Assembly: GCF_007747445.1 (NCBI RefSeq)
Contig: NZ_CP036425.1
Location: 2,030,175-2,094,174, forward strand
Direction: 5' to 3'
Source: Poriferisphaera corsica
GTDB taxonomy: Bacteria; Planctomycetota; Phycisphaerae; Phycisphaerales; Phycisphaeraceae
Length of the DNA: 64,000 bases
Within the stretch, counting starts at the first letter, position 1; each line of letters starts with the position of its first letter. The notes below the pieces were generated by a model that saw only the letters and a program-made list of their open reading frames with translations, ran no database searches and had not been told where the DNA came from. Positions 23,499 through 43,320 of this stretch are shown here, in pieces. A program made the position numbers and the translations under genes.

Positions 23499-23504
23499 GT
23501 CAAC

Positions 23505-23646: not shown

Positions 23647-23652
23647 CAGGCG

Positions 23653-26621: not shown

Positions 26622-26637
26622 ACGTTTGTATAACGAC

Positions 26638-26668
26638 AAAAAAAGCCCGCTTTAGAGCGGGCTTTTTC
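26638..26668. terminator. bidirectional intrinsic terminator
   Basis: GCCCGCT pairs with AGCGGGC around a short loop, with a T run to the right and an A run to the left. It serves both the L,D-transpeptidase gene and cysH on the opposite strand. Confidence 0.9.
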
Positions 26669-26688
26669 ATTATATGTCTATCCGTAAA

Positions 26689-27477: not shown

Positions 27478-27765
27478 TGTTGTTTCTCCATAATCCCAGA
27501 TGTTCTAAACCGCTTCAGCCATACAACGACAGGCACTTCAGTTCATATCAAGCATCCGACTCGGGACCGTGTATATCTCTCGTGTGCAGATATCATAAAG
27601 CAAATCCGCTGAAATTAAAGAACCCGTACTTACCCTGTCTTATTTCAAGTATATGACTTGTTTTACGAGAAAAGCACCTCCTACACTTCTGAGACGTATG
27701 ATTGCACTGTTCGCGCCATGCTTACGTTTGATTTAAGACACACAAACCATAAGAATGTCATGCTT

Positions 27766-28314
27766 ATGACGGATTACTACCTCGCTATCGGCAGCAACCT
27801 CGGCAATCGACAAGCTCATCTCGATTTTGCTATTGAGCAGCTCACTGAGATCGATACTTCCGATGTCATAACTGTCAGTCCAATCTATGAAACCGAACCC
27901 ATTTCTGGCGACGGCATTCCGGATGACCTTCCTTCATTTCTAAATGGTGTTGTTCATATCAAAAGCTCACTTACACCTTTAATCCTTCTTAATGAACTCC
28001 AACGCATCGAAACAGAGGCCGGGCGGCCGCCTAAAAAAGATCGCGCCTTCTGGGGCTCACGTACCCTCGACATCGATATGCTCCTCGTAGAAGACCTTGT
28101 TATCGACAAGGGCCCCGAACTTATCATCCCACATCCACGTATGTGTGAGCGATGGTTCGTTCTCAAACCACTTGCAGACATCGCACCCGATCTCATCCAC
28201 CCAACCCGTAATACCACGATTCGCACCCTTCTCGCTCAATTGGATCACCAACCCGCATCCCGCTATTCTGGCGGCAGACAAACCGATTCCTCTCCGGATC
28301 AACAACATGACTGA
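27766..28314 (+). CDS. folK: 2-amino-4-hydroxy-6-hydroxymethyldihydropteridine pyrophosphokinase
   Basis: FolK transfers pyrophosphate from ATP to hydroxymethyl-dihydropterin in folate synthesis. The start MTDYYLAIGSNLGNRQ, the central RPPKKDRAFWGSRTLDIDMLL (catalytic Asp pair) and the end PHPRMCERWFVLKPLADIAP are diagnostic. The frame extends upstream to 27658, but family alignment supports the ATG at 27766. No strong ribosome binding site is seen. Its end overlaps queE by 8 nt, so the pterin pathway and queuosine genes appear to be one operon: folK, queE, queD. Confidence 0.93.
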   Translation: MTDYYLAIGSNLGNRQAHLDFAIEQLTEIDTSDVITVSPIYETEPISGDGIPDDLPSFLNGVVHIKSSLTPLILLNELQRIETEAGRPPKKDRAFWGSRTLDIDMLLVEDLVIDKGPELIIPHPRMCERWFVLKPLADIAPDLIHPTRNTTIRTLLAQLDHQPASRYSGGRQTDSSPDQQHD

Positions 28315-28999
28315 AGCGACTTGCCGTATCAATGAAATCTTCTACTCCGTCCAAGGCGAAAGCACTTGGACCGGCGAACGCTGTGTCTTTATCCGCCTCT
28401 CAGGTTGCCATCTTCGCTGTAATTACTGTGATACCGAGTACGCCTTCCGTGAAGGCTCAACCATGACTCATACTCAAATACACGATCAAGTCCGCAGTAT
28501 GGCCCCTTCTTGCAACCTCATCGAAATCACAGGCGGAGAGCCACTTCTTCAAAAATCTATCCATCCATTGATGACTCAGCTCATCGATGCAGGCAATACC
28601 GTACTCATCGAAACCTCAGGAGCCTGCGATATCAGTACCTGCGATCCTCGCGTTATCCGTATTATGGACATCAAAACCCCCGGCAGCGGCGAGTCCCATC
28701 GTAACGATTGGAACAATATTCAACATCTCAATCAAAACGACGAGGTTAAATTCGTCATCTGCGACCGTGTTGATTATGAATGGGCCCGCAACATTCTCGA
28801 AAAATATGATCTCAGTAACCGAGCTAAAGCTGTCCTTTTCAGTGCCGCCGGTCAAATGCCCAAAAGCTCCGAGATTCAAGGCATCGAGGGCCTCAATCTC
28901 CGTCAACTCACTGACTGGGTTCTCCAAGATAACCTCCCAGTAAAACTCCAAATCCAGCTCCACAAGATCATCTGGGATCCCGCCGCACGAGGTGTGTAA
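28307..28999 (+). CDS. queE: 7-carboxy-7-deazaguanine synthase (radical SAM)
   Basis: QueE converts 6-carboxytetrahydropterin into 7-carboxy-7-deazaguanine in queuosine biosynthesis. The protein starts RINEIFYSVQGESTWTGERC and carries the radical-SAM cysteines C34, C38 and C41 in CHLRCNYCDTEYAF, then EITGGEPLLQ. Length 230 is normal. The longer frame beginning at 28097 lies inside folK in another frame and is rejected. The 8-nt overlap with folK suggests translational coupling, and queD follows 206 nt downstream. Confidence 0.94.
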   Translation: MTEATCRINEIFYSVQGESTWTGERCVFIRLSGCHLRCNYCDTEYAFREGSTMTHTQIHDQVRSMAPSCNLIEITGGEPLLQKSIHPLMTQLIDAGNTVLIETSGACDISTCDPRVIRIMDIKTPGSGESHRNDWNNIQHLNQNDEVKFVICDRVDYEWARNILEKYDLSNRAKAVLFSAAGQMPKSSEIQGIEGLNLRQLTDWVLQDNLPVKLQIQLHKIIWDPAARGV

Positions 29000-29205
29000 C
29001 GCCGTTAATCACACTAGATTTGATTCAAACCTCCAAGACTGCGATGATATCCCGCCTGTGCTAGACGCAATGGGTGGATGCTCGAGGGGTGATGCAGGGG
29101 ACAAACAGGGGTGCGGGGATTGACTAATTTCGCGACTCAACAATCCGCAGTCATCGCTGCACGCTGTGTCGTTTTCTCGCTGACCCACGCTAACAGGTAT
29201 TCGTG

Positions 29206-29568
29206 ATGAAGATTGCTCTAACCAAAAAAATTGACTTCGAAGCCGCTCATTGGCTCCCCAAATTCCCTGACGGCCACAAATGCCGCCGTCTTCATGGCCA
29301 CTCCTTCAAGGTCGACATCGTTGTCGAAGGCGAATGTGACCCTGAAATGGGCTACCTCATGGACTTCGGCGACATCAAAAAAGTCACCGCCCCTCTCGTC
29401 GATCAACTCGATCACTACTGCCTCAACGACATTCAAGGCCTGGAAAATCCCACAGCCGAAACACTCGCCAAATGGATCTACGACAAACTTATCCCTCACC
29501 TCCCCATGCTCAAACTCGTTCGCGTCCATGAAACCTGCACCTCCTCCGCAGAATACTGGGGTGAATAA
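29206..29568 (+). CDS. queD: 6-carboxy-5,6,7,8-tetrahydropterin synthase
   Basis: This 120-residue PTPS-family enzyme makes the substrate of QueE from dihydroneopterin triphosphate. Zinc ligands are the His in FEAAHWLP and the two in RLHGHSF; the catalytic Cys is in GHKCRRLHGHS, and the CxxxHGH pattern distinguishes QueD from animal PTPS. DHYCLND, PTAETLAKWI and the terminal VHETCTSSAEYWG are further family marks. The ATG at 29206 is preferred over a GTG 3 nt earlier. It completes the folK-queE-queD set; queC and queF are not in the window. Confidence 0.95.
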   Translation: MKIALTKKIDFEAAHWLPKFPDGHKCRRLHGHSFKVDIVVEGECDPEMGYLMDFGDIKKVTAPLVDQLDHYCLNDIQGLENPTAETLAKWIYDKLIPHLPMLKLVRVHETCTSSAEYWGE

Positions 29569-29611
29569 TCACCCTCCCTCTCCACTTTTCTGACAACCAA
29601 CCAAAATTCTC

Positions 29612-29638
29612 AAGCGAAGCCGTCCCCACGCTTCGCTT
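29612..29638 (+). terminator. possible terminator after queD
   Basis: AAGCGAAGC pairs perfectly with GCTTCGCTT around a nine-base loop, but only ATTTTATG follows, so the T tract is weak. Confidence 0.5.
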
Positions 29639-29755
29639 ATTTTATGTCTTAACCTCACCCCACCCATTTAGTCGATTTGTTTACCGTACCCTCATGCGTG
29701 TAACATAACTCAGCCCCATAAAGACCGATTACGCCTTTGTTCAGGAATGCCAAAA

Positions 29756-30400
29756 ATGCCTTACGGAACCATGCTTCAGGTTATCAAGCACCCCCTCATC
29801 GACCACTACCTCACTCGTATTCGTGACATCGATACCTCTTGTGCACGCTTCCGTGACCTCGTTGGCTGCGTCGGCACGCTCCTTGCCTACGAAGCGACCC
29901 GTGACGTCAAACAAGAAGAAGTGGAAGTCCAGACCCCCATGGAAAAATGCACGGGTCTGCGCTTCGCTAACAACGTCTGTATCGTCCCCATCCTCCGAGC
30001 AGGCATCGGCTTCTCCGACGCCATCGTCTCGCTCTTCCCCGACGCCCACATCGGCCACATCGGCCTCTTCCGCAACGAAGACATCCTCGAGCCTGTTGAG
30101 TACTACAAATCACTTCCCATACAGATCGGCCAAGGCCCTGTCCTACTCGTCGACCCCATGCTCGCCACCGGCGGATCTGCTATCGCCGCAGCCAAAATGC
30201 TCAAAGAAAAAGGCTGTAAAGATATCCGCTTCATCTGCTTGATCGCTGCGCCCGAAGGCATCGAAAAATTCCACATCGCTCACCCCGATGTTCCCATCTA
30301 CACCGCAGCAGTCGACCGCCAACTCGATGAGAACGGCTACATCCTACCCGGGCTCGGCGACGCCGGTGACCGCATCTTCGGCACACTCGAAAAGCATTAA
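29756..30400 (+). CDS. upp: uracil phosphoribosyltransferase
   Basis: Upp makes UMP from uracil and PRPP in pyrimidine salvage. The PRPP loop VDPMLATGGSAIAA is at about residues 131-145, and the family C-terminus DRQLDENGYILPGLGDAGDR is complete, as is PILRAGIGFSDAI. The ATG at 29756 is chosen because AGGA lies about 9 nt upstream; the ATG at 29747 directly abuts that site. It stands alone and is followed 52 nt downstream by one copy of the 33-nt palindromic repeat. Confidence 0.94.
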   Translation: MPYGTMLQVIKHPLIDHYLTRIRDIDTSCARFRDLVGCVGTLLAYEATRDVKQEEVEVQTPMEKCTGLRFANNVCIVPILRAGIGFSDAIVSLFPDAHIGHIGLFRNEDILEPVEYYKSLPIQIGQGPVLLVDPMLATGGSAIAAAKMLKEKGCKDIRFICLIAAPEGIEKFHIAHPDVPIYTAAVDRQLDENGYILPGLGDAGDRIFGTLEKH

Positions 30401-30452
30401 CCCTTACCCCCCCCTCAAAAAAATAGAATAATCACACCCGAATTGCTCTACC

Positions 30453-30485
30453 AAGCCCATGACCGCCGGTCATGGGGTGTCTTCC
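30453..30485 (+). repeat. 33-nt palindromic element, copy A
   Basis: The core CATGACCG-C-CGGTCATG is a perfect palindrome with a one-base centre. It is preceded by AAGCC and followed by GGGGTGTCTTCC. It starts 52 nt after the upp stop codon. Copy C (49501-49533, minus strand) differs at one of 33 positions, and copy B (31544-31576) is diverged. Confidence 0.7.
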
Positions 30486-30565
30486 GAACCCACAGCCTGA
30501 TGCCTGTAAAACCTGCCGTCATTGGTCTAAAGATTGTTGATGAGCCTACATCTCAAAGATGTGGG

Positions 30566-31099
30566 TTATTGTTGACCTATCAGCCCAATAATCTCATCAC
30601 TCACCTGCTCAAGTTCAGGCGCTGCCACATCCACAATCACATCCGAAGCCGCTTGATACGTTTCTACTCGCTTCGCCAAAATTTCCCTCACCTCATCCAG
30701 CCCCGTGCCCTTCCCTGTCAGGCTTGGCCGTGTCTCATCTGATTTCACATCTCCACTGATACGCTCATATAGCACTTCAGCCGGTGCGCTCAGATACACT
30801 CGCACCGCATCACAGCAACCCACAACCGCATCAAACGCGCCCTTTTGCATCACTGCCCCACCCCCTAAAGCAATCACCGCATCCCCCTTTCCATCGCAAG
30901 CTTCCTTCACGACTTCAACTTCCTTCTCTCGAAACGCCCTTTCGCCATATTCCGACCAGATCTTGGCAATACTCATCCCCCCAAACCGTTCCACAATCAC
31001 CTCATCCGTATCCACAAACGCCCACCCAAGCTTCTTGGCCACATGTTGACCGACCGTGGATTTCCCCGAACCTCGATAACCAAGCAGAATAATCTTCAT
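30566..31099 (-). CDS. aroK: shikimate kinase
   Basis: The 177-residue kinase phosphorylates shikimate in aromatic amino-acid synthesis. Walker A is GYRGSGKST (8-16), FVDTDEVIVERFG holds the Asp that binds shikimate, and ALGGGAVM and RPSLTG are the substrate and lid motifs. The open frame runs upstream to 31393, but the true start is the ATG at 31099, where family similarity begins. A perfect TATAAT sits exactly 6 nt before that ATG, with GGAGGG between them, so the message may be nearly leaderless. The gene diverges from the DciA-like gene. Confidence 0.93.
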   Translation of the reverse strand: MKIILLGYRGSGKSTVGQHVAKKLGWAFVDTDEVIVERFGGMSIAKIWSEYGERAFREKEVEVVKEACDGKGDAVIALGGGAVMQKGAFDAVVGCCDAVRVYLSAPAEVLYERISGDVKSDETRPSLTGKGTGLDEVREILAKRVETYQAASDVIVDVAAPELEQVSDEIIGLIGQQ

Positions 31100-31105
31100 C
31101 CCTCC

Positions 31106-31111
31106 ATTATA
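31106..31111 (-). promoter_or_regulatory. TATAAT hexamer immediately before aroK
   Basis: Read on the minus strand, TATAAT is followed by 6 nt and the aroK ATG. Because the local sequence ATTATAAT is self-complementary, it also offers a TATAAT on the plus strand, facing the DciA-like gene. Confidence 0.5.
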
Positions 31112-31154
31112 ATGGGCTTCAGACGAATTACCCATCCACAGGAACAATACCCCG

Positions 31155-31526
31155 ATGGACGAGCGTGTCAGCCAGCAACACCTCCAGCAACTCCGTGACA
31201 ATCGCAACTTCAGAGATCGCGATTTCTCGCTATCGTTCCTCCAAAGGCAATTCAAAAACGAGATCGAAAAGCCCTTCAAGCAGATTGCCGGCCTCGTTGA
31301 AGTCTGGAACAGGCTTGTCCCCGAACACATCGCCACACACACACGTCTCGAATCTCTCAGCCGAGGCATCCTCCGCGTCTCAGTCGAATCCAATAGTTGG
31401 CTTTACGAACTAGATAAAGCGCTCCGCAGTGGTCTGCAAAATCAAATCATTTCTGAATTCCGTGGTAAAGCCTTCCGACGTGTCCAGCTCAAAGTCGATC
31501 CCGCCCCATTCTTCCATGAAGAATAG
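31155..31526 (+). CDS. DUF721 / DciA-like protein
   Basis: The 123-residue protein contains the DUF721 core: VWNRLVPEHIATHTRLESLSRGILRVSVESNSWLYELD, with a helix after it (ALRSGLQNQII). DciA proteins of this family load the replicative helicase DnaB in bacteria without DnaC or DnaI. The N-terminal 45 residues are charged and probably helical. The family link is clear, but a helicase-loading role is inferred. It is followed 18 nt downstream by copy B of the palindromic element. Confidence 0.8.
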   Translation: MDERVSQQHLQQLRDNRNFRDRDFSLSFLQRQFKNEIEKPFKQIAGLVEVWNRLVPEHIATHTRLESLSRGILRVSVESNSWLYELDKALRSGLQNQIISEFRGKAFRRVQLKVDPAPFFHEE

Positions 31527-31543
31527 TATTTTTACATATTCTC

Positions 31544-31576
31544 AAACCCATGACCGCTAGCCATGGGGTGTTCTAC
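31544..31576 (+). repeat. 33-nt palindromic element, copy B (diverged)
   Basis: AAACCCATGACCGC, then TAGCCATGGGGTGTTCTAC. The left arm and the GGGGTGT right flank match copies A and C; the right arm of the palindrome has changed. It starts 18 nt after the stop codon of the DciA-like gene. Confidence 0.6.
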
Positions 31577-31720
31577 AACAAAATCAAAACCTGCTATTCG
31601 AATTCGATATCACACAACACAAATTCCACGCTTTACACTCAGGGAAATTCGCCCTAACGTCTGTTCAGTTATACGTCGATTATCATCACAACCGTCTTTC
31701 TTGACCACGGGGAACAACCA

Positions 31721-32533
31721 ATGCGAACCACATCTATTCTTCTTCTCGCACTCAGCGCTGCCGTTCTGATAAGCTGCGAAAACCAACAGAAAATCCCCGA
31801 TGCTGGCATGGGCTACGGAACCCCCATCAGTGAAGATGCCACACCATCCCAAACTGCCACCACATCGACCACAGCGCAAGCCAGTACAGCAAATTCAGCC
31901 AACAATACAGACAACCCGAAAACCAAAACCACGCTCCCCCCGCTCCAATCCATTGACGCTAAAACGCTTCTTCCGATTAAAAAAATTGTTGGCTCATTCG
32001 CATACACCAAAAACAATGACCCAACACGCACCCTCAATTTCACCTCAGAACCTACCCGTAACGGCTTCATTCAGACCATCGACGGCCTACGCCGCGTCTA
32101 TCTCGAATGGGATACCCAAGGCAATCTCGTCTTAAAGCGTGATGATGATTTCAAAGAAAACGTTCGTGTCATGTACACGCCCGGCATCATCGTTGTCCCC
32201 GTTAAACTCGAACAAAACGAACCCAACATCACTTCCAAATCTCGTGTTCAAGTTTTCAATCTCTCTGACGGCCACCCTCGCGCTGCCGGCACAATCAACA
32301 GCCAACTCATCGCCATCTGGCAGTCCCGTATCGAAACAAATGCCGGTCCATTCGACGCATATATCATCCGTGAAAAACGAAGTCTCGACCTCGATATCGC
32401 ACAAGTCGATCTCACGCTCGACACCGCCTACTCGCCCGGCAACGGTGAAATCTTGCAAATGGAATGGCGCACCCAAAAAACACTCGATCTTTTCATCGAC
32501 AACACCAAAGCCAAACTTCTTCGAGAAAAATAA
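31721..32533 (+). CDS. predicted lipoprotein of unknown function
   Basis: The 270-residue protein has a lipoprotein signal peptide (MRTTSILLLALSAAVLISC, Cys19 as lipidation site) and a Thr/Ser/Ala-rich linker to about residue 70. A beta-rich domain follows, with segments such as RVYLEWDTQGNLVLKRDDDF and GNGEILQMEWRTQ. I do not recognise the domain. The end of the protein contains charged residues (NTKAKLLREK). GGGGA lies 7 nt before the ATG. It is expected to be anchored to a membrane and facing the periplasm. Confidence 0.7.
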   Translation: MRTTSILLLALSAAVLISCENQQKIPDAGMGYGTPISEDATPSQTATTSTTAQASTANSANNTDNPKTKTTLPPLQSIDAKTLLPIKKIVGSFAYTKNNDPTRTLNFTSEPTRNGFIQTIDGLRRVYLEWDTQGNLVLKRDDDFKENVRVMYTPGIIVVPVKLEQNEPNITSKSRVQVFNLSDGHPRAAGTINSQLIAIWQSRIETNAGPFDAYIIREKRSLDLDIAQVDLTLDTAYSPGNGEILQMEWRTQKTLDLFIDNTKAKLLREK

Positions 32534-32802
32534 CCCAATCTGCCCAATCAATACAAAGCAAGCTCTCCTGTTATCGGAATACCAACTGCCCGTAACTTTG
32601 ATTCCGATATTTAAGTCTTTCTTGCACGATTTGATAAAGTCTTCTCGCAACCTAAACGATATCACTTAGAGTAAGGCACGGCCGATCCATGACCTTACTC
32701 ATTCAGTAACGCCACATGTCTATGTCATGATTAGTCAACCAACCAATCTGACAGCGAATGGTGTGAGAGAAAGAACCGTACCCCCATCAGGAAGATGAGC
32801 GT

Positions 32803-33036
32803 ATGAGCTCCAGTGTAATCAAACTGATCTGCCCCAATCTCCAATGCCGCAAGGTACTCTCTGTACCATCGCATGCTCGAGGTAAAAGTGTCCGTTGTCG
32901 TGCCTGTGGCATACGTGTAACTGTACCCGGCAAAAGAGCTCCTCAAATTGCACAACCCGCAACGACAGATGATTCGCAAATCATCGAAGCGACCACAGAA
33001 ACAACCGAGCAGTCAGAAGCAGAAACCCAAGAATAA
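32803..33036 (+). CDS. small zinc-ribbon protein
   Basis: The 77-residue protein has two cysteine pairs, CPNLQC and CRAC, separated by 16 residues including VPSHARGKSVR. This matches the short zinc-ribbon (MJ0042/zf-ribbon type) domains found at the front of many planctomycete proteins. The rest is a polar Thr/Glu-rich tail (ATTETTEQSEAETQE). Here it stands alone rather than being fused to another domain. The role is unknown. It is followed by a strong terminator, which supports it as a real transcription unit. Confidence 0.75.
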   Translation: MSSSVIKLICPNLQCRKVLSVPSHARGKSVRCRACGIRVTVPGKRAPQIAQPATTDDSQIIEATTETTEQSEAETQE

Positions 33037-33060
33037 TCCACAGCACAATCAAACAATCAA

Positions 33061-33089
33061 AAAAGCACCAGAATCTCTGGTGCTTTTTC
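33061..33089. terminator. bidirectional intrinsic terminator
   Basis: AAAGCACCAGA pairs with TCTGGTGCTTT around ATC, flanked by T and A runs. It can serve the zinc-ribbon gene and the opposing FHA gene. Confidence 0.88.
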
Positions 33090-33137
33090 ATTTGATATTT
33101 ATACATAATATTTCAAACCTCAGTTTGAAATAACCCC

Positions 33138-33704
33138 TCAAGATTCATCGTCATCAGCCAACTCAATATCGATCTTCTTCAAATCTTCTTCTGAGAGATC
33201 AATTGGCCCTGTGTCTGAATCATCATTGGCTAACGCTTCAAGTGCCGCAATTTGAGCATCAAGATCATTCTCCGCAATCGCTGTAGTCAGCTCAGATTCA
33301 CCTTGAGCAACCATCGTGTGGTCTCCGCCCTCTTGCGGCTTCTCAGCCGCTTCTCGCTGGCCTGATCCACCACCTGTCAGCATCGTCTTGATCGGCTTGA
33401 TATTCGTTGGTTTGCCATTCACCACAACCGTAAACACAACCGGCCCTATCGTGATCTCATCGCCAGCCTTTAGCAATGACTCCTGAACACGGTTATCATT
33501 CAGCAGCGTCCCATTACTCGAACCCAGATCCCGCAGCAAGACCTGATCACCATCAATCGTGATCTCACAATGCTGCCGCGATACGGACGAAAGAGGAATA
33601 CGCAGGTCGCAAGTGTTCTTGCGGCCAATGACCACTTTGCCTCGCGTGATCGGAAAATCACGACGAAGCCCGTCAGATTTGAACATCGCCAGTGAGACGT
33701 TCAT
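33138..33704 (-). CDS. FHA-domain protein
   Basis: The first ~95 residues form a forkhead-associated domain that binds phosphothreonine: VVIGRKNTCDLRIPLSSVSRQHCEI and LRDLGSSNGTLLND hold the conserved Gly-Arg, Ser-Arg-His and Asn residues. The remaining ~95 residues are acidic and probably disordered, with helices such as LDAQIAALEALAND and SEEDLKKIDIELADDDES. The partner kinase is not in the window. The ATG at 33704 is preferred, with GAGG 7 nt upstream; a longer start at 33725 adds only MAKRGRL. It diverges from hemW. Confidence 0.85.
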   Translation of the reverse strand: MNVSLAMFKSDGLRRDFPITRGKVVIGRKNTCDLRIPLSSVSRQHCEITIDGDQVLLRDLGSSNGTLLNDNRVQESLLKAGDEITIGPVVFTVVVNGKPTNIKPIKTMLTGGGSGQREAAEKPQEGGDHTMVAQGESELTTAIAENDLDAQIAALEALANDDSDTGPIDLSEEDLKKIDIELADDDES

Positions 33705-33769
33705 CAAACGACCTCTTTTCGCCAATAATTCAGTTAATGAGACACGAAAATTTTAACGGAGTACCGTTC

Positions 33770-34984
33770 GTGCAGCAACCTAAGCAAGTCATTTCTGGGC
33801 ACAGAGTTACCTTATTCCAACCTACGCAGAATGCGCTCGGGCTTTACCTCCATATCCCTTTCTGCTTCCATAAGTGCCATTACTGCGATTTTTACAGTAT
33901 CGTCGACTCTGACCTCCAGCATAAGTCGCGACAGAAGCATTTTACTGACGCACTCTGTTGTGAATTATTAGCTGCTAACGACCAGTCCCCACTCCCTGTT
34001 CGAACCATTTTTGTGGGTGGTGGAACCCCCACACTCTTAAAACCTCATTTTTGGCAAAAAATCCTTGAAACACTCCACAAAATCCTCGATTTCGACCTCA
34101 TAGATGAATTTACCGTCGAGGCAAATCCTGAAACCGTCACACCGGAACTAATGCGACTTTTTTCCTCCCAGGGCGTCAATCGCATCTCAATCGGGGCCCA
34201 ATCTTTCGACACCTCCCTCCTCAAAGTCCTCGAGCGTTGGCATGACCCGCAGAACGTCCTAAAAGCCATCGACACCGCTCGAGACGCCGGTATTCACAAC
34301 ATTAATCTCGACATGATCTTCGCCATCCCTTCCCAGACTCTCACCCGTCTCGAGTCCGATCTAAGCGCCGTCCTTGCCCTGCAGCCCGACCATATCTCAG
34401 ATTATTCGCTCATTTTCGAGCCGAACACACCCCTCACTCAAAAACGCAATATGGGGCTCATCGCCCCGCTCCCCGAAGACGCAGAGCGTGATATGTACCA
34501 ACTTGTGATCGATCGCCTCACTTCCGCAGGCTACGACCATTACGAAATATCCAACTACGCAAAATCTTCTAACAACCCTGATCTCCCCGCCTGGGGCAAT
34601 CAGTGCCTCCACAATCTTCTCTACTGGCATAACGCCAACTGGCTCGGTTTCGGCCCCGCCGCCGCCTCTCATATGAACGGCCATCGCTGGAAAAATCTCC
34701 CTCATCTCGGCAAATATATCGAGGGCTCACCCACGCCGCCAACCACCGACCATGAATACCTCTCACGCCGTGACCGTCTTGGCGAAGCTCTCATGTTAGG
34801 CCTCCGACTCCGTCAAGGCGTACCTATTACATGGATAGATTCAAATATCCCATCCACTGATCCGCGTCACCAAACCATTGCAGAACTCAAACAAATCAAC
34901 ATGCTCGAAGTTCGTGATCAATCACTCCGTCTCACCGATCAAGGGCTTTTTGTTGCCGATGCCGTGATCGCCAAACTCTTATAA
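33770..34984 (+). CDS. hemW: HemW-type radical SAM protein (haem chaperone, formerly oxygen-independent coproporphyrinogen III oxidase-like)
   Basis: The protein has the radical-SAM cysteines in IPFCFHKCHYCDFYS, then FVGGGTPTLL, FTVEANPETVTP and ISIGAQSFDT. The HemW-specific region WHNANWLGFGPAAASHMNG and the HemN C-terminal domain follow. HemW proteins bind haem and insert it into respiratory enzymes; true HemN would need an extra N-terminal Tyr/Cys pattern that is not seen. The GTG at 33770 is proposed as the start because GGAG lies 8 nt upstream; an ATG at 33737 (11 residues longer) is the alternative. Confidence 0.88.
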   Translation: MQQPKQVISGHRVTLFQPTQNALGLYLHIPFCFHKCHYCDFYSIVDSDLQHKSRQKHFTDALCCELLAANDQSPLPVRTIFVGGGTPTLLKPHFWQKILETLHKILDFDLIDEFTVEANPETVTPELMRLFSSQGVNRISIGAQSFDTSLLKVLERWHDPQNVLKAIDTARDAGIHNINLDMIFAIPSQTLTRLESDLSAVLALQPDHISDYSLIFEPNTPLTQKRNMGLIAPLPEDAERDMYQLVIDRLTSAGYDHYEISNYAKSSNNPDLPAWGNQCLHNLLYWHNANWLGFGPAAASHMNGHRWKNLPHLGKYIEGSPTPPTTDHEYLSRRDRLGEALMLGLRLRQGVPITWIDSNIPSTDPRHQTIAELKQINMLEVRDQSLRLTDQGLFVADAVIAKLL

Positions 34985-35019
34985 CCCCAACTTTCTTTGC
35001 ATTCCAATAGTTCAAAAAA

Positions 35020-35057
35020 AAAAGAAGCCCGCATGTTCATCGCATACGGGCTTTTTC
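35020..35057. terminator. bidirectional terminator between hemW and secA
   Basis: GCCCG pairs with CGGGC, extended by CATG/CATA, with T5 on the right and a run of ten A on the left. It can stop hemW (plus) and secA (minus). Confidence 0.8.
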
Positions 35058-35075
35058 TGTCAATCTATTTAGCGA

Positions 35076-38000
35076 TTAGCGTTTTCTGCGCCGTTGCTTA
35101 TAGGTCTTTCCAGCTGGTTTCGATGATTCTCCCCCTTCACCGCCATGCCGTCCTCTTGCCTGTTTCGCACGCCGCGCTCGGCGTGAACGTGGCGCCTCAT
35201 CCTCACCACCAGCTTTATCCGCCGCAGCCATATCCTGCTGTTGCGAATCAGTACCCTGCCCTGCAGCAGCCGATGCAAACTCTTCATGCTTCTCCTGTTG
35301 CCCAGCATAAGCATTCTGCACCTGAACATTCGGCGTCAATCTTGCTCTGAATATCAAATCCGTCACACGATCACGCACATTCTTCTGCATTTCCAAGAAG
35401 TGGTTCGCACCTTCACGCTTATACTCAATTCGAGGATCCTTCTCAGCATACCCACGTAGACCCACCGAATCTTTCAGTTGGTCCATTCCGTACAAATGAT
35501 CCTTCCAAGCCTGATCGAGAATCTGCAGTAGTACATATCGCTCCAACTGCCCTAATTCCAATCGCAGAAGTTCTTCTCCCTTCTCGATCATGAACCCTTC
35601 AATATCTTCTTTCTCTTTAAAGAGTTCATCTTCCATCTCAACATTGAACCGATCCCTGAACCACTGTGCCAGCAGCATTGGATCGTTATTTTTCTTCGAA
35701 ATTTCCTCTTTAATTTGCGTCTCAAGCTTATCACCCAAGATCCAAGGCTCGCCTTCTTTACGCAAATACTCAAACAGCTCTTTGCCATTCTTCCCATCAA
35801 CCTCTTCAGCCGACAACTCAAAATCGTAACGCTGCTTCACCCAATTGATCAGCTGGTCAACCGCCCAGTTCTGATCCTGCTGAGCACCTTGATAAACAAT
35901 ATCCAAGATAAACTCAATCGGGTAATTGAGCTCGCGCTGTTGATACGCCTCACGCGCCTTATCCAAAATCATGTCCAAGCATTCTTCCGCAGGCATATCA
36001 ACCATATCCTGAGGCACCAACTCCACACCAAATTTATTACGCGCCCAAGCCGCTAATTCTTTTTCGCCCAGATGCTTCTCTAAGTATTTCGCAACACCCG
36101 AGAAGTCCGTTTTATCAATCTGTTCGCAAGCCTTGTCACTCAGAATCGATGAAACCTCACGCGAGTTCATCTTTGAAACCTCGCCTTGGTTCAGCTTCAC
36201 ATCAAACCGCGATTTCGCCCAACTCACCAGCCCTCTCACATCCCACTCCGCAGGCGGCAAATCATCCGACAAATACTCACCAATCGTCACGTCAATAATC
36301 TGACCAATCTCACCCCGTGCATTCTTAAGCACGATCCCCTTCAACTCTTCCAAGTCCTCCAAATGCAGTCTGGATGGCTCGATCATCACGTCCATCTCAC
36401 TCTTAACCCATTCAGCAACCTGACGTTTTGCATACAATTTGTCTTTATAAAAATCTACCGCATCAGCCACGGATTCCGTGATGTACTCAAAGATAATCTG
36501 TCTCACATTCTTGCCTTCAAGCACATCCTGCCTGATCCCATAGAACGTGTTTCGCTGATACTCCATCACCTCGTCATACTCAAGCAGGTTCTTACGGATC
36601 TCATAGTTCCGCTCTTCAACCTTTCTCTGAGCACGTTCAACACTCTTCGTCACCCATCGATGCTCAATCGCGTCCCCTTCTTTCATGCCCAGTTTCGACA
36701 GCGCGCTCAGCGTCGTCTTGCCTGCAAACATCTTCATCAAATCATCTTCAAGCGAGATGAAGAATCGTGAAGAACCTTGATCACCCTGACGTCCCGAGCG
36801 ACCGCGCAACTGATTATCAATTCGGCGTGATTCATGACGTTCTGTACCAATAATGTGCAACCCGCCCATCTCTTCAATATTTGTGCAGATCGTCAATCGG
36901 TGAAGGTAATACTCAGGCAAACCATCAAGCATTTTCTCGCATTGCTCAAGGTTCATTCCCCGCGCCTTCTTGGGCTCAGTCCATGCATCCTTCGCACACA
37001 AATACCGCAGGAATTCAAGCTTCAACTCATCATCGCTCATCCCCGCCGCTTCTTTTTTGTCCAGTTCAGTCTCCGTTACAGCAAGATGACGATACGCCGC
37101 CGCGACAAGTTCCTCATCCCCCATCTCTGCATTCGCACTCTTAGGCAGCATATTTCGCAACTGCCAATGCTTCACCAACTGCTCACGACCAATCTGTCCC
37201 AAACGAATGTCCGTACCACGCCCCGCCATATTCGTTGCGATCATCACCGCACCAAGCTCACCAGCATTCGCAACGATATTCGACTCGCGCTCCGCCTGGT
37301 CAACCTTCGCGTTCAAGACCTCATGCTTAATCCCATATTTCTGTTTCAAGCCCCGAGACAACATCTCACTACGCTCAACCGAAGTCGTACCCACCAACAC
37401 CGGCCGCCCCACATCATGCGTCCGCTTGATCTCATCAACAATCGCATTCCATTTATCTTTTTCTGAAAGATAAATCAGGTCATCCCTATCCGTTCTCGAA
37501 ATCGGCAAGTTCGTCGGAATACAAATCACCTCAAGACCATAAATCTCAAGGAACTCCGTCGCCTCAGTCACAGCCGTCCCTGTCATACCCGCAAGCCGCT
37601 TGTACAGCTTGAAGAAGTTCTGGATCGTCACCGTCGCAAGTGTCTGCGTTTCTTCCTTGATCTTCACCGATTCTTTTGATTCAACCGCCTGATGTAGACC
37701 ATCCGACCACTGGCGTCCAATCATCAAGCGGCCCGTGAACTCGTCAACAATAATCACTTCCCCTTCACGCACCACATAATCCTTGTCACGCTTATATACC
37801 ACGTGAGCACGCAATGCATTTTCAAGCAGGTGTGGAAAGTCCATATTCTGCCCCACATAGAACGATCCAACCCCCGCTTCCTTTTGCGCCTCCGCAATCC
37901 CTTCATGCGTCAGATGCACTGCCTTCTTATCGATTTCTACCTCGTAATACTGCGTAAACTGATCACGATCCGCTTCAAGCTCAGGCAACTGTGTCTCCAG

Positions 38001-39113
38001 TTGCTTCATCTCATCCTTCATCGCAGGAACCGCCGCTTTGTCCCGAGCGTTACGGATATCGCCCTCCAGCCCCTTGATCTTCATAATCGTCTGCTGAACA
38101 AATTTATCCTTTGCGTCCCATTCTTTCTGCATCGCCACCAGATGAGCAGAAATCTTGTTCGCTTCACCATACTTTGGTGCATCCTGATGTGCCGGTCCCG
38201 AGATAATCAATGGCGTCCTCGCCTCGTCAACCAGAATCGAGTCGATCTCGTCAACAATCACAAAGTCACGCCTCTTCTGTACCTGCTCCTCAGCCGTCAG
38301 CTTCATATTATCACGCAGATAATCAAACCCTAACTCAGAGTTAGTCGCGTACAGCACATTACACTGATAAGCCATCACCTTTTCTTGTGGCGGCTGCATG
38401 TGATATGGATGGATCGCACCCACCGTTAAACCCAACGCATAGTAAAACGGGAACACCCAGTCACGGTCACGTTGTACCAGGTAATCATTCACCGTCACCA
38501 CATGACACTTCAAATCATCCACACACGCCACATAACAAGCCAGCGGCGCAACAATCGTCTTGCCTTCCCCCGTCTTCATCTCAGCAATCTTGCCCTCACC
38601 CAAAACCATACCACCAATCAACTGTACATCGAACGGCCGCGCCCTGAACGGAGGCTTCGATAACGGATACAACTCCCGTACCGCATCGTAAATCGCGTTC
38701 GGCACATCAACCTGCAAGTACCCCGGCGCAGGAGCACCACCCAATACCGGCTCAGGCTCAAGCGCATCTGCCTTCGCCTTGATCTCAGCATAAACACCCT
38801 GCAATTCCGCAGGAAGTTTCGATGCATCAAACTCATGCGCATCATTAAATATGTTTCGCATACCCACCGCACGGTCCATTGCCTCACGCGCAACCGCCAT
38901 CACCTCAGGCAGCATATCCACCGCATTCTCGCCACCCTTCACACGCTCCTGAAACTCCGCGGTCTTCGCCTTGATCTCCGAGTCCGTCAACTGACGAATC
39001 TGCCCTTCTAACTCATTAATCATCATCACACGCCGCTGATATTGCTTCAGCAAACGCTCATTGCGGGAACCAAATACCGAAGTAAACGCTTTACTAACGT
39101 AAGGAATAAACAT
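35076..39113 (-). CDS. secA: preprotein translocase ATPase SecA, greatly enlarged
   Basis: SecA drives secretory proteins through SecYEG. All core motifs are present: Walker A MKTGEGKT (179-186), VDEIDSILVDEARTPLI (Walker B, 287-303), DEFTGRLM, GMTGTA, TNMAGRGTDI (627-636) and GTERHESRRIDNQLRGRSGRQGD (756-778). Length is 1,345 residues against a usual ~900. Extra sequence lies in three places: about 306-398 (charged, coiled-coil-like), about 637-750, and about 899-1190. The last contains five copies of a module resembling LxxWxxxxFxVxL (near 899, 962, 1020, 1088 and 1148). The C-terminus is highly basic (ending YKQRRRKR) and lacks the zinc-binding CxC...CC motif. It is on the minus strand, the G-rich strand in this region. 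Confidence 0.95.
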   Translation of the reverse strand: MFIPYVSKAFTSVFGSRNERLLKQYQRRVMMINELEGQIRQLTDSEIKAKTAEFQERVKGGENAVDMLPEVMAVAREAMDRAVGMRNIFNDAHEFDASKLPAELQGVYAEIKAKADALEPEPVLGGAPAPGYLQVDVPNAIYDAVRELYPLSKPPFRARPFDVQLIGGMVLGEGKIAEMKTGEGKTIVAPLACYVACVDDLKCHVVTVNDYLVQRDRDWVFPFYYALGLTVGAIHPYHMQPPQEKVMAYQCNVLYATNSELGFDYLRDNMKLTAEEQVQKRRDFVIVDEIDSILVDEARTPLIISGPAHQDAPKYGEANKISAHLVAMQKEWDAKDKFVQQTIMKIKGLEGDIRNARDKAAVPAMKDEMKQLETQLPELEADRDQFTQYYEVEIDKKAVHLTHEGIAEAQKEAGVGSFYVGQNMDFPHLLENALRAHVVYKRDKDYVVREGEVIIVDEFTGRLMIGRQWSDGLHQAVESKESVKIKEETQTLATVTIQNFFKLYKRLAGMTGTAVTEATEFLEIYGLEVICIPTNLPISRTDRDDLIYLSEKDKWNAIVDEIKRTHDVGRPVLVGTTSVERSEMLSRGLKQKYGIKHEVLNAKVDQAERESNIVANAGELGAVMIATNMAGRGTDIRLGQIGREQLVKHWQLRNMLPKSANAEMGDEELVAAAYRHLAVTETELDKKEAAGMSDDELKLEFLRYLCAKDAWTEPKKARGMNLEQCEKMLDGLPEYYLHRLTICTNIEEMGGLHIIGTERHESRRIDNQLRGRSGRQGDQGSSRFFISLEDDLMKMFAGKTTLSALSKLGMKEGDAIEHRWVTKSVERAQRKVEERNYEIRKNLLEYDEVMEYQRNTFYGIRQDVLEGKNVRQIIFEYITESVADAVDFYKDKLYAKRQVAEWVKSEMDVMIEPSRLHLEDLEELKGIVLKNARGEIGQIIDVTIGEYLSDDLPPAEWDVRGLVSWAKSRFDVKLNQGEVSKMNSREVSSILSDKACEQIDKTDFSGVAKYLEKHLGEKELAAWARNKFGVELVPQDMVDMPAEECLDMILDKAREAYQQRELNYPIEFILDIVYQGAQQDQNWAVDQLINWVKQRYDFELSAEEVDGKNGKELFEYLRKEGEPWILGDKLETQIKEEISKKNNDPMLLAQWFRDRFNVEMEDELFKEKEDIEGFMIEKGEELLRLELGQLERYVLLQILDQAWKDHLYGMDQLKDSVGLRGYAEKDPRIEYKREGANHFLEMQKNVRDRVTDLIFRARLTPNVQVQNAYAGQQEKHEEFASAAAGQGTDSQQQDMAAADKAGGEDEAPRSRRARRAKQARGRHGGEGGESSKPAGKTYKQRRRKR

Positions 39114-39255
39114 GTCGTTGCCTCAATCTCTAATCGATTGGTTGTTATTTTTGTCAATCGCTGCTCATCAGAACCAAATGGCTCCGCCGCCGCTCAAATC
39201 GCACACCATTGAAATGCTCTGTATGACTCAACAGATACATCACGGGTATGATCAC

Positions 39256-39278
39256 AGGACTATCTATCGAATAGTCCT
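39256..39278 (-). promoter_or_regulatory. hairpin upstream of secA
   Basis: AGGACTAT and ATAGTCCT are perfect complements separated by 7 nt, about 145 nt upstream of the secA ATG. No T run follows, so it is more likely an operator or leader hairpin than a terminator. Confidence 0.4.
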
Positions 39279-39412
39279 ATACAAATAGTATGTTGCTTTA
39301 TTTTCGTTGCAGCCGCGAGAATCGCATCTGCTCCGCCGTAATCGGCCTGTTGTGATCACGCTGATCATGCTACGCGCATAAGCACAACACCACTCGCAAT
39401 CACACATTCAAC

Positions 39413-39784
39413 CTACATCGCAGGTGGCGGCAAATTCAGAAGTGTTTGATGTAACCGCGCCCCCGCATCCGCAGCGTTAACCCGCCGCTCCATTAACAAT
39501 CTCATCCCGCCCGTTTCGACCACACCACGATCTTTGAAATCCATCAGCAAAGCGCGTGATACCATTCGCGGTTTGAGCTGCTGAACATTCTTAGCCAGAT
39601 CGTTCATCAGATGCGCAATCAATTTCTCATCGCGCGTCTGCAGCCCCATCTCCCCGTTGCGAAGATTCAGATTCACCGTTGCCGATGACACATCCGAAAA
39701 CGCGCCAAGACAGACAAACACCGACAACGTCAGTGTCAGGTAAGGCATCGCCATTTGTGATGATCTCTTCTTCACAACAATCAT
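39413..39784 (-). CDS. small exported protein of unknown function
   Basis: The 123-residue product has a hydrophobic signal segment (MPYLTLTLSVFVCLGAF, about residues 13-29) ending near SSATVN. The mature part is helical and basic and ends LLNLPPPAM. I do not recognise a family. The ribosome binding site is weak, and internal ATGs (MAMPYL, MPYL) could be the true start. It lies upstream of secA on the same strand, about 300 nt away, so co-transcription is possible. Confidence 0.5.
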   Translation of the reverse strand: MIVVKKRSSQMAMPYLTLTLSVFVCLGAFSDVSSATVNLNLRNGEMGLQTRDEKLIAHLMNDLAKNVQQLKPRMVSRALLMDFKDRGVVETGGMRLLMERRVNAADAGARLHQTLLNLPPPAM

Positions 39785-40318
39785 TATCGACCAGACCCTT
39801 CCATATGGTCAAGCCAGCTCCCCCGGAAAACCCCGGAAGTGTATTAATTCTCAAATCTACACCAGGTTAAATTGCCTCCCCTCAAGCCCGCCACTGTCGG
39901 TGGCAGGGTGTTTTCGATTGAAATATCAATCGCCTGCAATCTGATTAATACCGATCAAACCCCTTCCTCACCTACAATTAATCTGTTCGCAGCTTAATCC
40001 CCGCAACGCATCATGAAAGACACCTTTATCCTCTAATCAGACTAGATTTATGCACCAACCTGCCCAGAATACTTCATGAGTTGGCTAGCCCAGCCGATAA
40101 CGATATCATCACTCCTACTGTAGGTTTATGACAATTTAATTGCCTCCTGAGCTGGGCCCCCTTCAGAAAACAGTCGCCCACGCAGCCGGTTACAGCTGCC
40201 GCAATTTTTATTTTTGCGATTTCTGTAATTAACTGCCAATCCATGAGTTACTGTCTTTTGAAGTCGGCCTCCAGTCAACGGTCGCGCTCTCACCCCTGTG
40301 TCACATGGAAGCAGGCTC
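39785..40318. other. 534-nt non-coding gap before sucC
   Basis: No supported gene is seen. The gap separates the minus-strand small exported gene from sucC and must hold both promoters. A possible frame at 40126-40320 on the minus strand has no family similarity and overlaps the sucC leader. Confidence 0.45.
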
Positions 40319-41521
40319 ATGAATATTCATGAATATCAATCGCGTGAAATGCTCCAAACGTTCGGAATCCCCGTTCCGCCCGGCATTTTGGTCCAGAACC
40401 CAGTCGCCGCTGAAAAAGCTTTCGATGAGCTTCAAAAACGGTACGGCTCCGCGGTTTGTGTCGTTAAAGCACAAGTCCACGCTGGCGGACGCGGCAAGGG
40501 TGGCGGGGTCAAACTCGTCAAATCAGCCGAGGAAGCGCGTAAAGCCGCAAACGATATCCTGAGCAAACCCCTGATCACGCCGCAAACACCACCTGAAGGT
40601 GTTCCAGTGACCAAACTTCTTGTCGCTGCAGGTGTTGAGATCGAAAAAGAATACTACCTCGCGATCACCGTCGACCGCGTGACCGCATGTCCCGTCCTCA
40701 TCGCTTCCAGCGAAGGTGGCATGGATATCGAGGAAGTTGCCAAAACTAACCCCGAAGCCATCATCCGCGAGCCGATCAGTGCCGTGGCAGGTCTTCGTGC
40801 GTATCAGGCACGTAAGATCGCTTATTTCCTAGGGTTTAAAGGCAAACAGGTGCGTATGGCAGGCAAGATCATGCATCAGCTTGCCGATCTGTTCCTCAAG
40901 AATGACGCGAATCTTGCTGAGATCAACCCGTTGGTCGTCACCAAAGCGACTGATGAGCATCCAGACGGCACAGTTATCGCCTTGGATGCAAAGCTAAACT
41001 TCGATGAGAATGCGATGTTTAGGCAAGACGACGTCAGAAGTTTCGAAGACCCAACCGAAGAAGAGCCAGCAGAACGTCGCGCCAAGCAATTCGGCTTGTC
41101 CTACATCAAACTCGACGGCAATATTGGTTGCCTCGTCAATGGTGCAGGCCTCGCGATGTCCACGATGGATATCATCAAACTGCACGGCGGCGAGCCTGCC
41201 AACTTCCTCGACGTCGGCGGCTCAGCGTCGGAAGAGGCTGTCACAGAAGCATTTAGGATTATCCTTGGCGATGAAACCGTGAAGGGTATCTTGGTCAACA
41301 TCTTTGGCGGCATCGCCAAATGCGATACGATTGCCAAGGCGATCATCACCGCGGCCAAAGAAGTCGGATTCAAAGTACCTTTGGTTGTCAGACTTGAAGG
41401 CACGAACGTTGAGATTGCCCGCAAGCTGCTCGAAGAAGCCAAGGGTGACATCCCGATGATGGAAATCGGCAAAGACCTCACCGATGCTGCTAAGAAGATT
41501 ACCGCCCACATCGCGGCGTGA
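40319..41521 (+). CDS. sucC: succinyl-CoA synthetase beta subunit (ADP-forming type)
   Basis: The 400-residue protein is the ATP-grasp subunit that, with SucD, makes succinate and ATP from succinyl-CoA in the TCA cycle. The start [20 protein letters not shown], the ATP-grasp loop [55 protein letters not shown] and the C-terminal [16 protein letters not shown] with RLEGTNVE are all present. The ATG at 40319 is preferred over a GTG at 40298 because similarity starts there and GGAAG lies upstream. The usual partner sucD does not follow; a terminator does. Confidence 0.93.
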
Positions 41522-41586
41522 TTTTAAGGCAATGCGGGATATTGAAGTGATTGATTCGGGGGGGGGTGAATTGTAAAAAATGTGGC

Positions 41587-41617
41587 GGGCGGCAGTTAAG
41601 ACTGCCGCTCGTTTTTT
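41587..41617 (+). terminator. intrinsic terminator after sucC
   Basis: GGGCGGCAGT pairs with ACTGCCGCTC (one G-U) around TAAG, followed by six T. It ends sucC and confirms that sucD is not in the same transcript. Confidence 0.88.
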
Positions 41618-41655
41618 AAGCGTAACCCAACCGGCTCTTAGGAAGGATAAGTCAG

Positions 41656-41859
41656 ATGAAAGTTGAACCATTTTTGGCAGAATTGAACCGATTACGCCAG
41701 GACATTGATAAAGATGATACAGACATGGAGTGGTTGACACTTCATCATGTGTTCTGCTTCGTCAGTTATAAAATGGGTGATTTTGAGAAGTATCTCAACG
41801 AGCATGAAGCGATGGGCGAGTTCGAAGCGTACAAAGAAGAGATGGGTATCGAAGACTAA
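41656..41859 (+). CDS. small acidic protein of unknown function
   Basis: The 67-residue protein (MKVEPFLAELNRLRQDID, then DMEWLTLHHVFCFVSYKMGDFEKYLNEHEAMGEF) is acidic and probably all-helical. AAGGA lies 8 nt before the ATG. It sits directly behind the sucC terminator and just before the pyrimidine-rich and palindrome-rich non-coding block. I do not recognise a family. The good ribosome binding site and protein-like composition support it as a gene. Confidence 0.65.
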   Translation: MKVEPFLAELNRLRQDIDKDDTDMEWLTLHHVFCFVSYKMGDFEKYLNEHEAMGEFEAYKEEMGIED

Positions 41860-41946
41860 TCCCCCCATCCCCCCCATCATCCCCCCTCCCCCGCATCCCT
41901 CTCTTTTTTTCTTCCCCCCATGCCCTCTTTTCTCCCTCCCTCCTCA
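41858..41946 (+). repeat. polypyrimidine tract
   Basis: About 90 nt on the plus strand are almost entirely C and T, with several runs of 5-7 C. The minus strand is therefore G-rich with multiple G runs and could form a G-quadruplex, and the plus strand an i-motif. Confidence 0.7.
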
Positions 41947-41980
41947 TTACCTACATAACTAATCAGCGCATAGGTAGGAT

Positions 41981-42310
41981 TCATGTTTGTGCGCAAATTT
42001 GGTTTTATTTAACAGTGTTAAATGACGAGAAATGCGCGCTCAAATGCGCGTTTTTTTGTTTGTTTCGGCGCGTTTGCGCGCACAGATTCTTCAAATTAGT
42101 GATTTACCCGCAACCGAAATGACTCAAAATAGATGAAAAATCGCTAGAAAAATGATCATTTTTGGCGATAACCGCGCGCTAACTGAATAATCCACACGAG
42201 TGTGAAAATAGCAAAATGCGCGTTTGTGCGCGCATTCAAAAAATTACCGTAGGCAGATTGATAGATTTAGCGAATCCGATGATTGATGGGTTGATGCTAT
42301 TTATAGCACG
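41981..42310. other. non-coding block dense in palindromes (candidate origin or chromosome landmark)
   Basis: This stretch has no gene but many perfect dyads: ATTTAACA-g-TGTTAAAT (42007-42023); GCGCG-tttg-CGCGC (42068-42081); the 16-bp AAAAATGATCATTTTT (42148-42163) inside ATCGC...GCGAT (42140-42169); CACAC-ga-GTGTG (42193-42204, approximate); AATGCGCG-tttgtg-CGCGCATT (42215-42236); TGCTAT-tt-ATAGCA (42295-42308). GCGC words recur. TAATCCACA (42188-42196) is one base from the DnaA-box consensus. It coincides with a switch from C-rich to G-rich plus strand. Confidence 0.55.
42030..42057 (+). terminator. possible terminator inside the palindrome block
   Basis: AAATGCGC pairs with GCGCGTTT (one T-G pair) around an eight-base loop and runs into seven T. 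It could end the transcript of the small acidic gene. Confidence 0.5.
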
Positions 42311-42351: not shown

Positions 42352-43320
42352 CTAGGAGTTAGACGTGTTGGGCTGTAGGAGCTGCTCAGCGTTTGACGCG
42401 AGGTGGAGGTCGAGTTGTGGGAAGGGGATGCCGATGTCGGCGGCGTCGAGGGCGGTTTTGACATTTTGCGTGATGGCTTCACGGACGGCCCAGTAGTCAT
42501 CGGTTTTGGCCCAGACGCGGACAGACCAATCAATCGAGGATGGGCCGAGCTGGAGGAGGTAGATGGCGGGTTCGGGGTCGGTGAGGACGGCATTGGTTTG
42601 GGATGCGGCTTGAAGGAGTATTTGCCTTGTTTTTTCGAGGTCTGCGGTGTATTCGGTTCCGACGGCGACATCGACGCGGCGGGTTGGGTGATAGGTGATG
42701 TTCTCGATGGTTGAGCCAAAGATTGAGGCGTTGGGTACGATGATGCGGCGGTTGTCGGGGGTATCGAGTGTGGTGGTGAAGAGTTCGATTTCGAAGACCT
42801 TGCCGGTAGTTCCGGAAACGGTGATGACGTCGTTGACTTTGTAGGGTCGGAAGATGAGGAGCATGATGCCGGCTGCGAAGTTTGAGAGTGTGCCTTGGAA
42901 GGCGAGACCGATGGCGAGCCCAGCGGCGGCGATGAGTGCTGCAAATGAGGCGGTTGAGATGCCGAAGTATCCGAGGACGGAGATGATGGCGATGGCCATG
43001 ATTGACCAACGCGTTGATTTGGCGAAAAAGCGTGTGAGAGTTTCGTCGATTTTGGTTTTTCGCATAGAGGATGCAACGATGCGTGCGGCATAGGACGCGA
43101 TGAGGTAGGCGAAGAAGAGGAGGACTAGGAGGAGTGCGACTTGGGTGAGGATGGGGAGGAGGATGGCAAAAAGAGATTGGAAGTCACCGATTTTCAGTGC
43201 ATCGTAAGCGGCGGTGAGTGTTGAAGGGTCAGCGATGGAGTTTGTATCGGGTGTGGGATCGGGGTTTATTTGCGAGATTGTGTTGGTAACTAATAGATGA
43301 ATAGATGATGGTATGAGCAT
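42352..43320 (-). CDS. MscS-type mechanosensitive ion channel
   Basis: The 322-residue protein has three N-terminal membrane helices (about 52-78, 105-122, and the pore helix). The pore-lining helix LIAAAGLAIGLAFQGTLSNFAAGIMLL and the following RPYKVNDVITVSGTTGKV and VPNASIFGSTIENIT are typical of MscS. The C-terminal beta and alpha-beta domain is complete (SIDWSVRVWAKTDDYW, IPFPQLDLH). It opens on membrane tension to release solutes in hypo-osmotic shock. GAGGAG lies 7 nt before the ATG. Confidence 0.93.
   Translation of the reverse strand: MLIPSSIHLLVTNTISQINPDPTPDTNSIADPSTLTAAYDALKIGDFQSLFAILLPILTQVALLLVLLFFAYLIASYAARIVASSMRKTKIDETLTRFFAKSTRWSIMAIAIISVLGYFGISTASFAALIAAAGLAIGLAFQGTLSNFAAGIMLLIFRPYKVNDVITVSGTTGKVFEIELFTTTLDTPDNRRIIVPNASIFGSTIENITYHPTRRVDVAVGTEYTADLEKTRQILLQAASQTNAVLTDPEPAIYLLQLGPSSIDWSVRVWAKTDDYWAVREAITQNVKTALDAADIGIPFPQLDLHLASNAEQLLQPNTSNS

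Follow-up and report, generated by a model that had tools for sequence, protein, structure and literature searches.

Bacteria are described as having one replication origin per chromosome, and a 2023 review that treats all bacteria as restricted in this way raises the question of why they do not employ several (PMC10331603); the prior probability of dispersed origins in a bacterial genome is therefore low. Some cyanobacteria (Synechocystis, Nostoc), as outlined in PMC7198777, replicate asynchronously and independently of DnaA from multiple origins and have an irregular skew. Among archaea, Haloferax mediterranei has three active chromosomal origins, according to the part of PMC4595724 drawn on here. 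In human chromosomes, skew N-domains consist of sharp upward jumps, at which initiation zones lie, joined by roughly linear declines that are read as gradients of fork polarity between origins (PMC3320577). A 2015 opinion article on double origins cautions against equating skew minima with functional origins and warns of rearrangement (PMC4403523). Multi-origin replication is thus known in eukaryotes, archaea, and some cyanobacteria, and the newness of what we describe below is limited to bacteria.

The two cultivated planctomycetes compared here, Poriferisphaera corsica and Poriferisphaera heterotrophicis, appear to carry the evolutionary traces of long use of dozens of sequence-defined origins, beside a normal dnaA-oriC. 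Their skew resembles the human N-domains in its sharp upward jumps and roughly linear declines but is found in a bacterium, has a period of ∼40 kb rather than of a megabase, and carries a recognizable sequence element at each jump. With the multi-origin cyanobacteria the genus would share a bacterial chromosome with more than one start site, together with an unusual GC skew; whereas no defined element is described in the portion of PMC7198777 used here, the Poriferisphaera sites are sequence defined, conserved in position, and marked by skew. Poriferisphaera also keeps dnaA and a conventional candidate oriC, unlike the DnaA-independent cyanobacterial initiation outlined in that source. As on archaeal chromosomes, several origins would lie on one circle, but in place of the three of H. 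mediterranei (as given in the cited part of PMC4595724) a single short element recurs on the order of 100 times. The elements share the C-to-G upshift of the bacterial DnaA-oriC and differ from it in lacking both clusters of DnaA boxes and a dnaA neighborhood. A search of the open-access literature (subscription papers and preprints being outside its scope) found no report of the pattern or the element in Poriferisphaera, and the ∼280-bp intergenic family is previously undescribed.

The locus under study is a noncoding block at 41981 to 42310 in a window of 64 kb, the whole stretch of P. corsica DNA that was analyzed, which covers positions 2,030,175 to 2,094,174 of the chromosome. The earlier note proposed this block as a candidate oriC on the strength of its palindromes, a DnaA-like site, and a skew switch. 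The switch was confirmed (Table 1), as was the abundance of GCGC words (12 in the block; mean per 330 nt, 0.94). The G+C content of the block is 0.40, and it contains four perfect palindromes of at least 8 bp in 330 nt, compared with a window mean of 0.93 (four or more occur in 1.2% of 330-nt windows); a total of six or more perfect dyads is reached only when those with spacers are counted too. Both the 16-bp palindrome and the near-consensus DnaA box are present where the note placed them, but neither is conserved among the other copies of the element described below. The polypyrimidine tract said to lie just upstream was located as well. Tracts of this kind are rare (0.4% of random 700-bp windows), and as a unit of the family the tract was rejected, adjoining only 2 of 50 elements. 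The short open reading frame (ORF) downstream of sucC had no Pfam match. The mscS gene is directed towards the upshift, though it lies inside positive skew. Across the complete skew domain of the window, skew is positive, declines gradually, crosses zero near 25.5 kb, and becomes negative before the next upshift.

Table 1. Features of the 64-kb P. corsica window (coordinates count from its first letter)
Feature	Coordinates	Strand	Basis or remark
Second, diverged element	2144..2336	-	Model match, E 2.6e-11; own upshift at ~3570 (2033.8 kb), on its 5' side
Complete skew domain between two elements, ~38 kb	3570..41200		Skew profile
C-to-G upshift zone, 5' side of element	40000..42000		Best split ~41200; cumulative minimum ~40709
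sucC, succinyl-CoA ligase beta subunit, 5' neighbor	40298..41521	+	Pfam; same neighbor in P. heterotrophicis (synteny)
67-aa ORF between sucC and element	41656..41859	+	Also in P. heterotrophicis
Polypyrimidine tract, long, C-rich, between 67-aa ORF and element	41860..41945		Sequence
Element, copy of the dispersed family, intergenic, ~280 bp	41981..42260	+	BLAST and covariance-model matches across genome
Core word TTTGTGCGC, copy 1	41986..41994	+	Word counts across element regions
Core word/dyad copy 2, GCGCGTTTGCGCGCACA (consensus GCGCGTTTGTGCGCACAAA)	42068..42084	+	Copy alignment and repeat analysis
TTTACCC	42103..42109	+	Kept in most better copies and in P. heterotrophicis
16-bp palindrome AAAAATGATCATTTTT	42148..42163		Private to window copy
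GATAACCGCGCGCTAACTGA	42167..42186	+	Nearly invariant among ten best copies
DnaA-like TAATCCACA	42188..42196	+	One mismatch to TTATCCACA; not conserved in other copies
Core word copy 3, GCGCGTTTGTGCGCGCATT	42218..42236	+	Repeat analysis and copy alignment
MscS-type mechanosensitive channel, 3' neighbor	42352..43320	-	Pfam

When the block was searched against its own genome, ten other significant places were found. Ten copies align over ∼280 bp with a mean column identity of 67%; conserved among them are the TTTGTGCGC/GCGCACAAA words, AGTGATTTACCCGTA, and GATAACCGCGCGCTAACTGA, with TTTACCC also kept; the core of the element is TTTGTGCGCACAAA. The word TTGTGCGC occurs in 26 of 30 P. corsica and 19 of 20 P. 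heterotrophicis element regions, where 0.7 to 1.0 would be expected. A sequence-only covariance model built from the aligned copies gave 88 matches at an E value of ≤1 in P. corsica and 122 in P. heterotrophicis, some places being matched on both strands. At an E value of <0.01, at least 52 distinct places were matched in P. corsica; these genome-wide counts are model matches, and the letters themselves covered ∼1.2 to 1.3 Mb of the 4.29-Mb genome. The family in this species numbers at least 50 and probably around 100 members, which are intergenic, dispersed, and present in both orientations; P. heterotrophicis has about as many or more. Many are weakly conserved, and some upshifts carry a relic alone. 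No family match was obtained at an E value of ≤0.001 in 39 other genomes of the order.

Two other identities for the repeat were considered and rejected. An RNA gene was discounted on the grounds that there was no Rfam match, that the strongest conservation is of primary sequence, and that covariation is negligible: in the aligned copies no covarying helices were found (covariation term of −0.12; two-sided change in 2 of 25 pairs). A protein-coding repeat was dismissed as well: although some of the copies do share short antisense frames, these are interrupted by single-base indels, and no position of the conserved core varies.

The skew of the surrounding chromosome has the shape of a factory roof. 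Over a contiguous 464 kb of P. corsica (1,890,175 to 2,354,174), each cycle of GC skew begins with an abrupt rise, over a few kilobases, from about −0.3 to about +0.3 or +0.4; a slow fall follows, which passes zero and ends near −0.3, where the next rise sets in. There are 11 such upshifts, about one per 40 kb, and extrapolation to the whole chromosome would give ∼100 skew domains. The same sawtooth was seen over 400 kb of P. heterotrophicis, again with 11 upshifts.

Every one of the 11 P. corsica upshifts in the 464 kb carries an element, significant (E < 0.01) in nine cases and weak in two, and no significant element lies elsewhere in that region. The window copy scored 202 bits in this search (E = 9.5e-61). 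All nine significant elements lie 143 to 1,616 bp from an upshift; 12.9% of intergenic bases are that close, and the probability of this arrangement by chance is ∼1e-8. The other two upshifts have a weak match at 2174.7 kb and a relic, TTTTGTGCGCACG, at ∼2255.3 kb. We then examined 20 further elements per species, picked by model score alone and with skew ignored. Skew was higher on the right in 20 of 20 cases in P. corsica (means, −0.25 on the left and +0.24 on the right) and in 20 of 20 in P. heterotrophicis (−0.27 and +0.19). When the profiles are oriented by the element, the mean is nearly identical in the two species: GC skew is about −0.28 (P. corsica) or −0.24 (P. heterotrophicis) up to −2.2 kb, crosses zero ∼1.1 kb on the 5' side of the element, and is about +0.3 from the element onward, while AT skew shifts from about +0.07 to about −0.1. 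The upshift thus lies on the 5' side whichever strand carries the element (median, −1.1 kb), with few exceptions. One strong P. heterotrophicis upshift, at 2,591,351, showed no element by either the model or word clusters. The notion of an origin-like site, as distinct from a single oriC, thus has stronger support than the block by itself could give: the block belongs to a dispersed family whose members sit at C-to-G upshifts in every examined case in two species.

The sign of the skew is set by position relative to the element and not by gene strand or transcription. In P. corsica, GC skew on the coding strand at 4-fold degenerate sites within 0 to 5 kb of an upshift was +0.51 for genes reading away from it and −0.72 for genes reading towards it; within 8 kb in P. 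heterotrophicis, the values were +0.71 and −0.71 (both sets rest on simple ORF calls and not on curated annotation). Intergenic DNA of P. corsica behaves similarly, with a GC skew of +0.31 and −0.29 on the two sides of the upshift, and the 4-fold-site bias weakens with distance from it. The strand running outwards from the element is rich in G and T. The usual leading-strand signature is likewise G- and T-rich.

Beneath the sawtooth, the chromosome retains the marks of a conventional origin. The P. corsica KS4 genome is a single contig of 4,291,168 bp in which dnaA starts at or just before base 361. The block, at 2,072,155, is 48% of the circle away from dnaA, nearly diametrically opposed to it and close to the expected position of the terminus, and its neighbors are sucC and mscS rather than dnaA or other replication genes. 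A candidate conventional oriC is situated beside dnaA at ∼7 kb, 2.07 Mb from the block, with a pair of DnaA boxes (TTATCCACA at 6984 and, on the opposite strand, TTATGCACA at 6998) and a strong upshift at 7 to 8 kb, where raw skew plateaus reach about −0.5 and +0.6. Mean sampled skew has opposite signs on the two arms, in agreement with a dnaA-proximal origin, and upshift midpoints differ between the arms (+0.076 versus −0.058; Mann-Whitney P = 4e-4). This weaker arm polarity is superposed on the local sawtooth and points to the dnaA region, and the skew minimum at the block is local only. DnaA boxes are scarce at the elements: the block has its one unconserved single-mismatch site, only 4 DnaA-box words were found in the 600 bp around 49 elements, almost none of which has a recognizable box, and no TTATNCACA site occurs in the 64-kb window. 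A XerC/D dif site had been considered because the block is near the expected terminus and shows a loose resemblance at 41986 to 42015; it was rejected, the sequence being a genome-wide repeat and the sign of the switch that of an origin and not of a terminus.

Repeated ATAACTGCGCGAGCGC and TTACCGACA words were noted in the candidate oriC region (6370 to 7240 of the P. corsica record). A weak element-like match lies just beside it, at 6.5 kb, and on this account the dispersed element may have arisen from oriC or may act together with it.

We consider it quite probable that the block is one of a numerous set of bidirectional replication origins that are scattered over the chromosome and specified by sequence, the strand asymmetry pointing to active multi-origin replication. 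The sequences show the family itself, its link to the upshifts, a skew that ignores gene strand, conserved positions, and the superposed arm polarity; that DNA replication is the asymmetric process, that many elements fire within a single cell cycle, and which part of the element is bound are inferred from them. That a bacterium with a normal dnaA-oriC uses dozens of simultaneous sequence-defined origins ∼40 kb apart, each a genus-specific ∼280-bp element served presumably by its own initiator, seems to us reasonably likely. A putative initiator would recognize the conserved core together with the TTTGTGCGC(ACAAA) words. Forks would then set out in both directions from a zone of ∼2 kb located 5' of the element, to meet those of neighboring elements at variable places ∼20 kb away. 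The leading strand in this genus is predicted to turn strongly G-rich and mildly T-rich, so that repeated firing would imprint an abrupt C-to-G switch at every element and a slow fall in skew from one element to the next; the fall would arise because fork meeting positions vary, the reasoning applied to human N-domains (PMC3320577). The ordinary DnaA-oriC beside dnaA would still be active and would supply the weaker chromosome-wide polarity.

How often the elements fire may be judged from the size of the jumps. Since a large jump is found at every element, each would start a large share of the replication rounds that pass it, and since there are on the order of 100 elements, many would be active in each round. 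A single origin wandering among ∼100 sites would be expected to give jumps only ∼1% as large. By a rough model estimate, a typical element might be used in about half of the rounds if the raw plateaus at oriC represent the maximum. A second DnaA-domain protein (PF00308; P. corsica position 230859) was considered as the genus-specific initiator and rejected: it is present in nearly all examined genomes of the order, and an array confined to the genus is therefore not explained by it. If dispersed origins are indeed at work, multi-origin replication in bacteria becomes testable at named sites, and the genus offers a compact system for the evolution of origin spacing, firing, and termination. The single-origin assumption built into skew-based oriC finders, peak-to-trough growth rate estimates, and assembly checks would mislead in Poriferisphaera.

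An unlikely alternative is that the elements launch some other bidirectional strand-asymmetric process reaching ∼20 kb, such as local re-replication or recombination-associated synthesis, and not regular replication. The data do show asymmetry and not replication itself, and an arm polarity of the oriC type persists. Against such a process, the outward G- and T-rich sign is that of a leading strand, whereas resection of 5' ends from a break followed by cytosine deamination would predict the opposite sign, and an amplitude of 0.5 to 0.7 at 4-fold sites calls for something that operates in most generations. Should replication prove not to be responsible, there would still be a bacterial element to explain that gives rise to a GC skew of ±0.3 (up to 0.7 at silent sites) over ∼20 kb to either side.

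We regard it as very unlikely that the skew is selected or structural, made up of oriented signals for a DNA translocase or for a nucleoid or segregation protein with the elements as centers of protein-binding domains. The palindromic GC-rich core words are plausible protein sites, but the very high bias extends across 4-fold sites and intergenic DNA and is far above what sparse motifs could yield.

REPIN, BIME, and MITE families are short, palindrome-rich intergenic repeats with many copies in both orientations. The element shares these traits, and it might be asked whether a mobile repeat of this kind, dispersed, intergenic, and ∼280 bp long, merely prefers to insert at existing skew upshifts. 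Comparison of the two species makes this highly improbable. Among the sampled elements, at least nine pairs are common to both, with the same gene neighbors, the same orientation, and a similar offset; the window copy has its counterpart at 5,089,707 in P. heterotrophicis, with sucC on the left in both. The chromosomes are rearranged, and the positions of the shared pairs on them differ widely. The paired sequences have diverged to ∼65%, and retention of neighbors, orientation, and offset despite this divergence argues against recent mobility and for constraint on position. Unlike REPIN-like repeats, then, the element is strictly associated with upshifts and occupies conserved orthologous positions, which appear to be old and constrained rather than recently mobile; insertion preference would moreover leave the sawtooth itself unexplained. 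Of the two outcomes that the earlier note had named as telling against an origin, one is borne out, the skew putting the main origin in another part of the chromosome; the other is not, the sister species having the block in the corresponding position, downstream of sucC.

An ordinary two-replichore chromosome scrambled by many inversions is hardly credible as the source of the dispersed upshifts. Irregular skew often does come from inversions or misassembly (PMC4403523, PMC7111523). Inversions should give down-steps as sharp as the up-steps, with no slow fall in between, whereas the large steps in P. corsica are strongly one-sided, up-steps of >0.4 being common and down-steps of <−0.4 absent at any flank length. 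There is, furthermore, an element at every upshift in 464 kb, and a second, independently sequenced species is alike. We give next to no weight to transcription-coupled skew from divergent operons: the sign fits divergent transcription, and of the 75 genes that lie within 5 kb of an upshift, 46 are directed away from it, but for messenger transcription the explanation is refuted by the opposite sign, at 4-fold sites, of the genes reading towards the upshift. As for the single chromosomal oriC suggested by the upshift, the dyads, and the one DnaA-like site, the block is a real element but is not the oriC, dnaA and true DnaA boxes lying far off at 0.4 to 7 kb with an upshift of their own and at least 52 similar blocks existing.

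No comparable sawtooth appeared in the stretches, 2 to 140 kb long, that were sampled from ∼50 relatives. Single sharp C-to-G upshifts of moderate size do occur in two genomes from another family of the order (G046, at 1,056 to 1,076 kb, and G058, on contig 22); these may represent the same phenomenon in a sparser form, or the oriC of those genomes, or the product of rearrangement.
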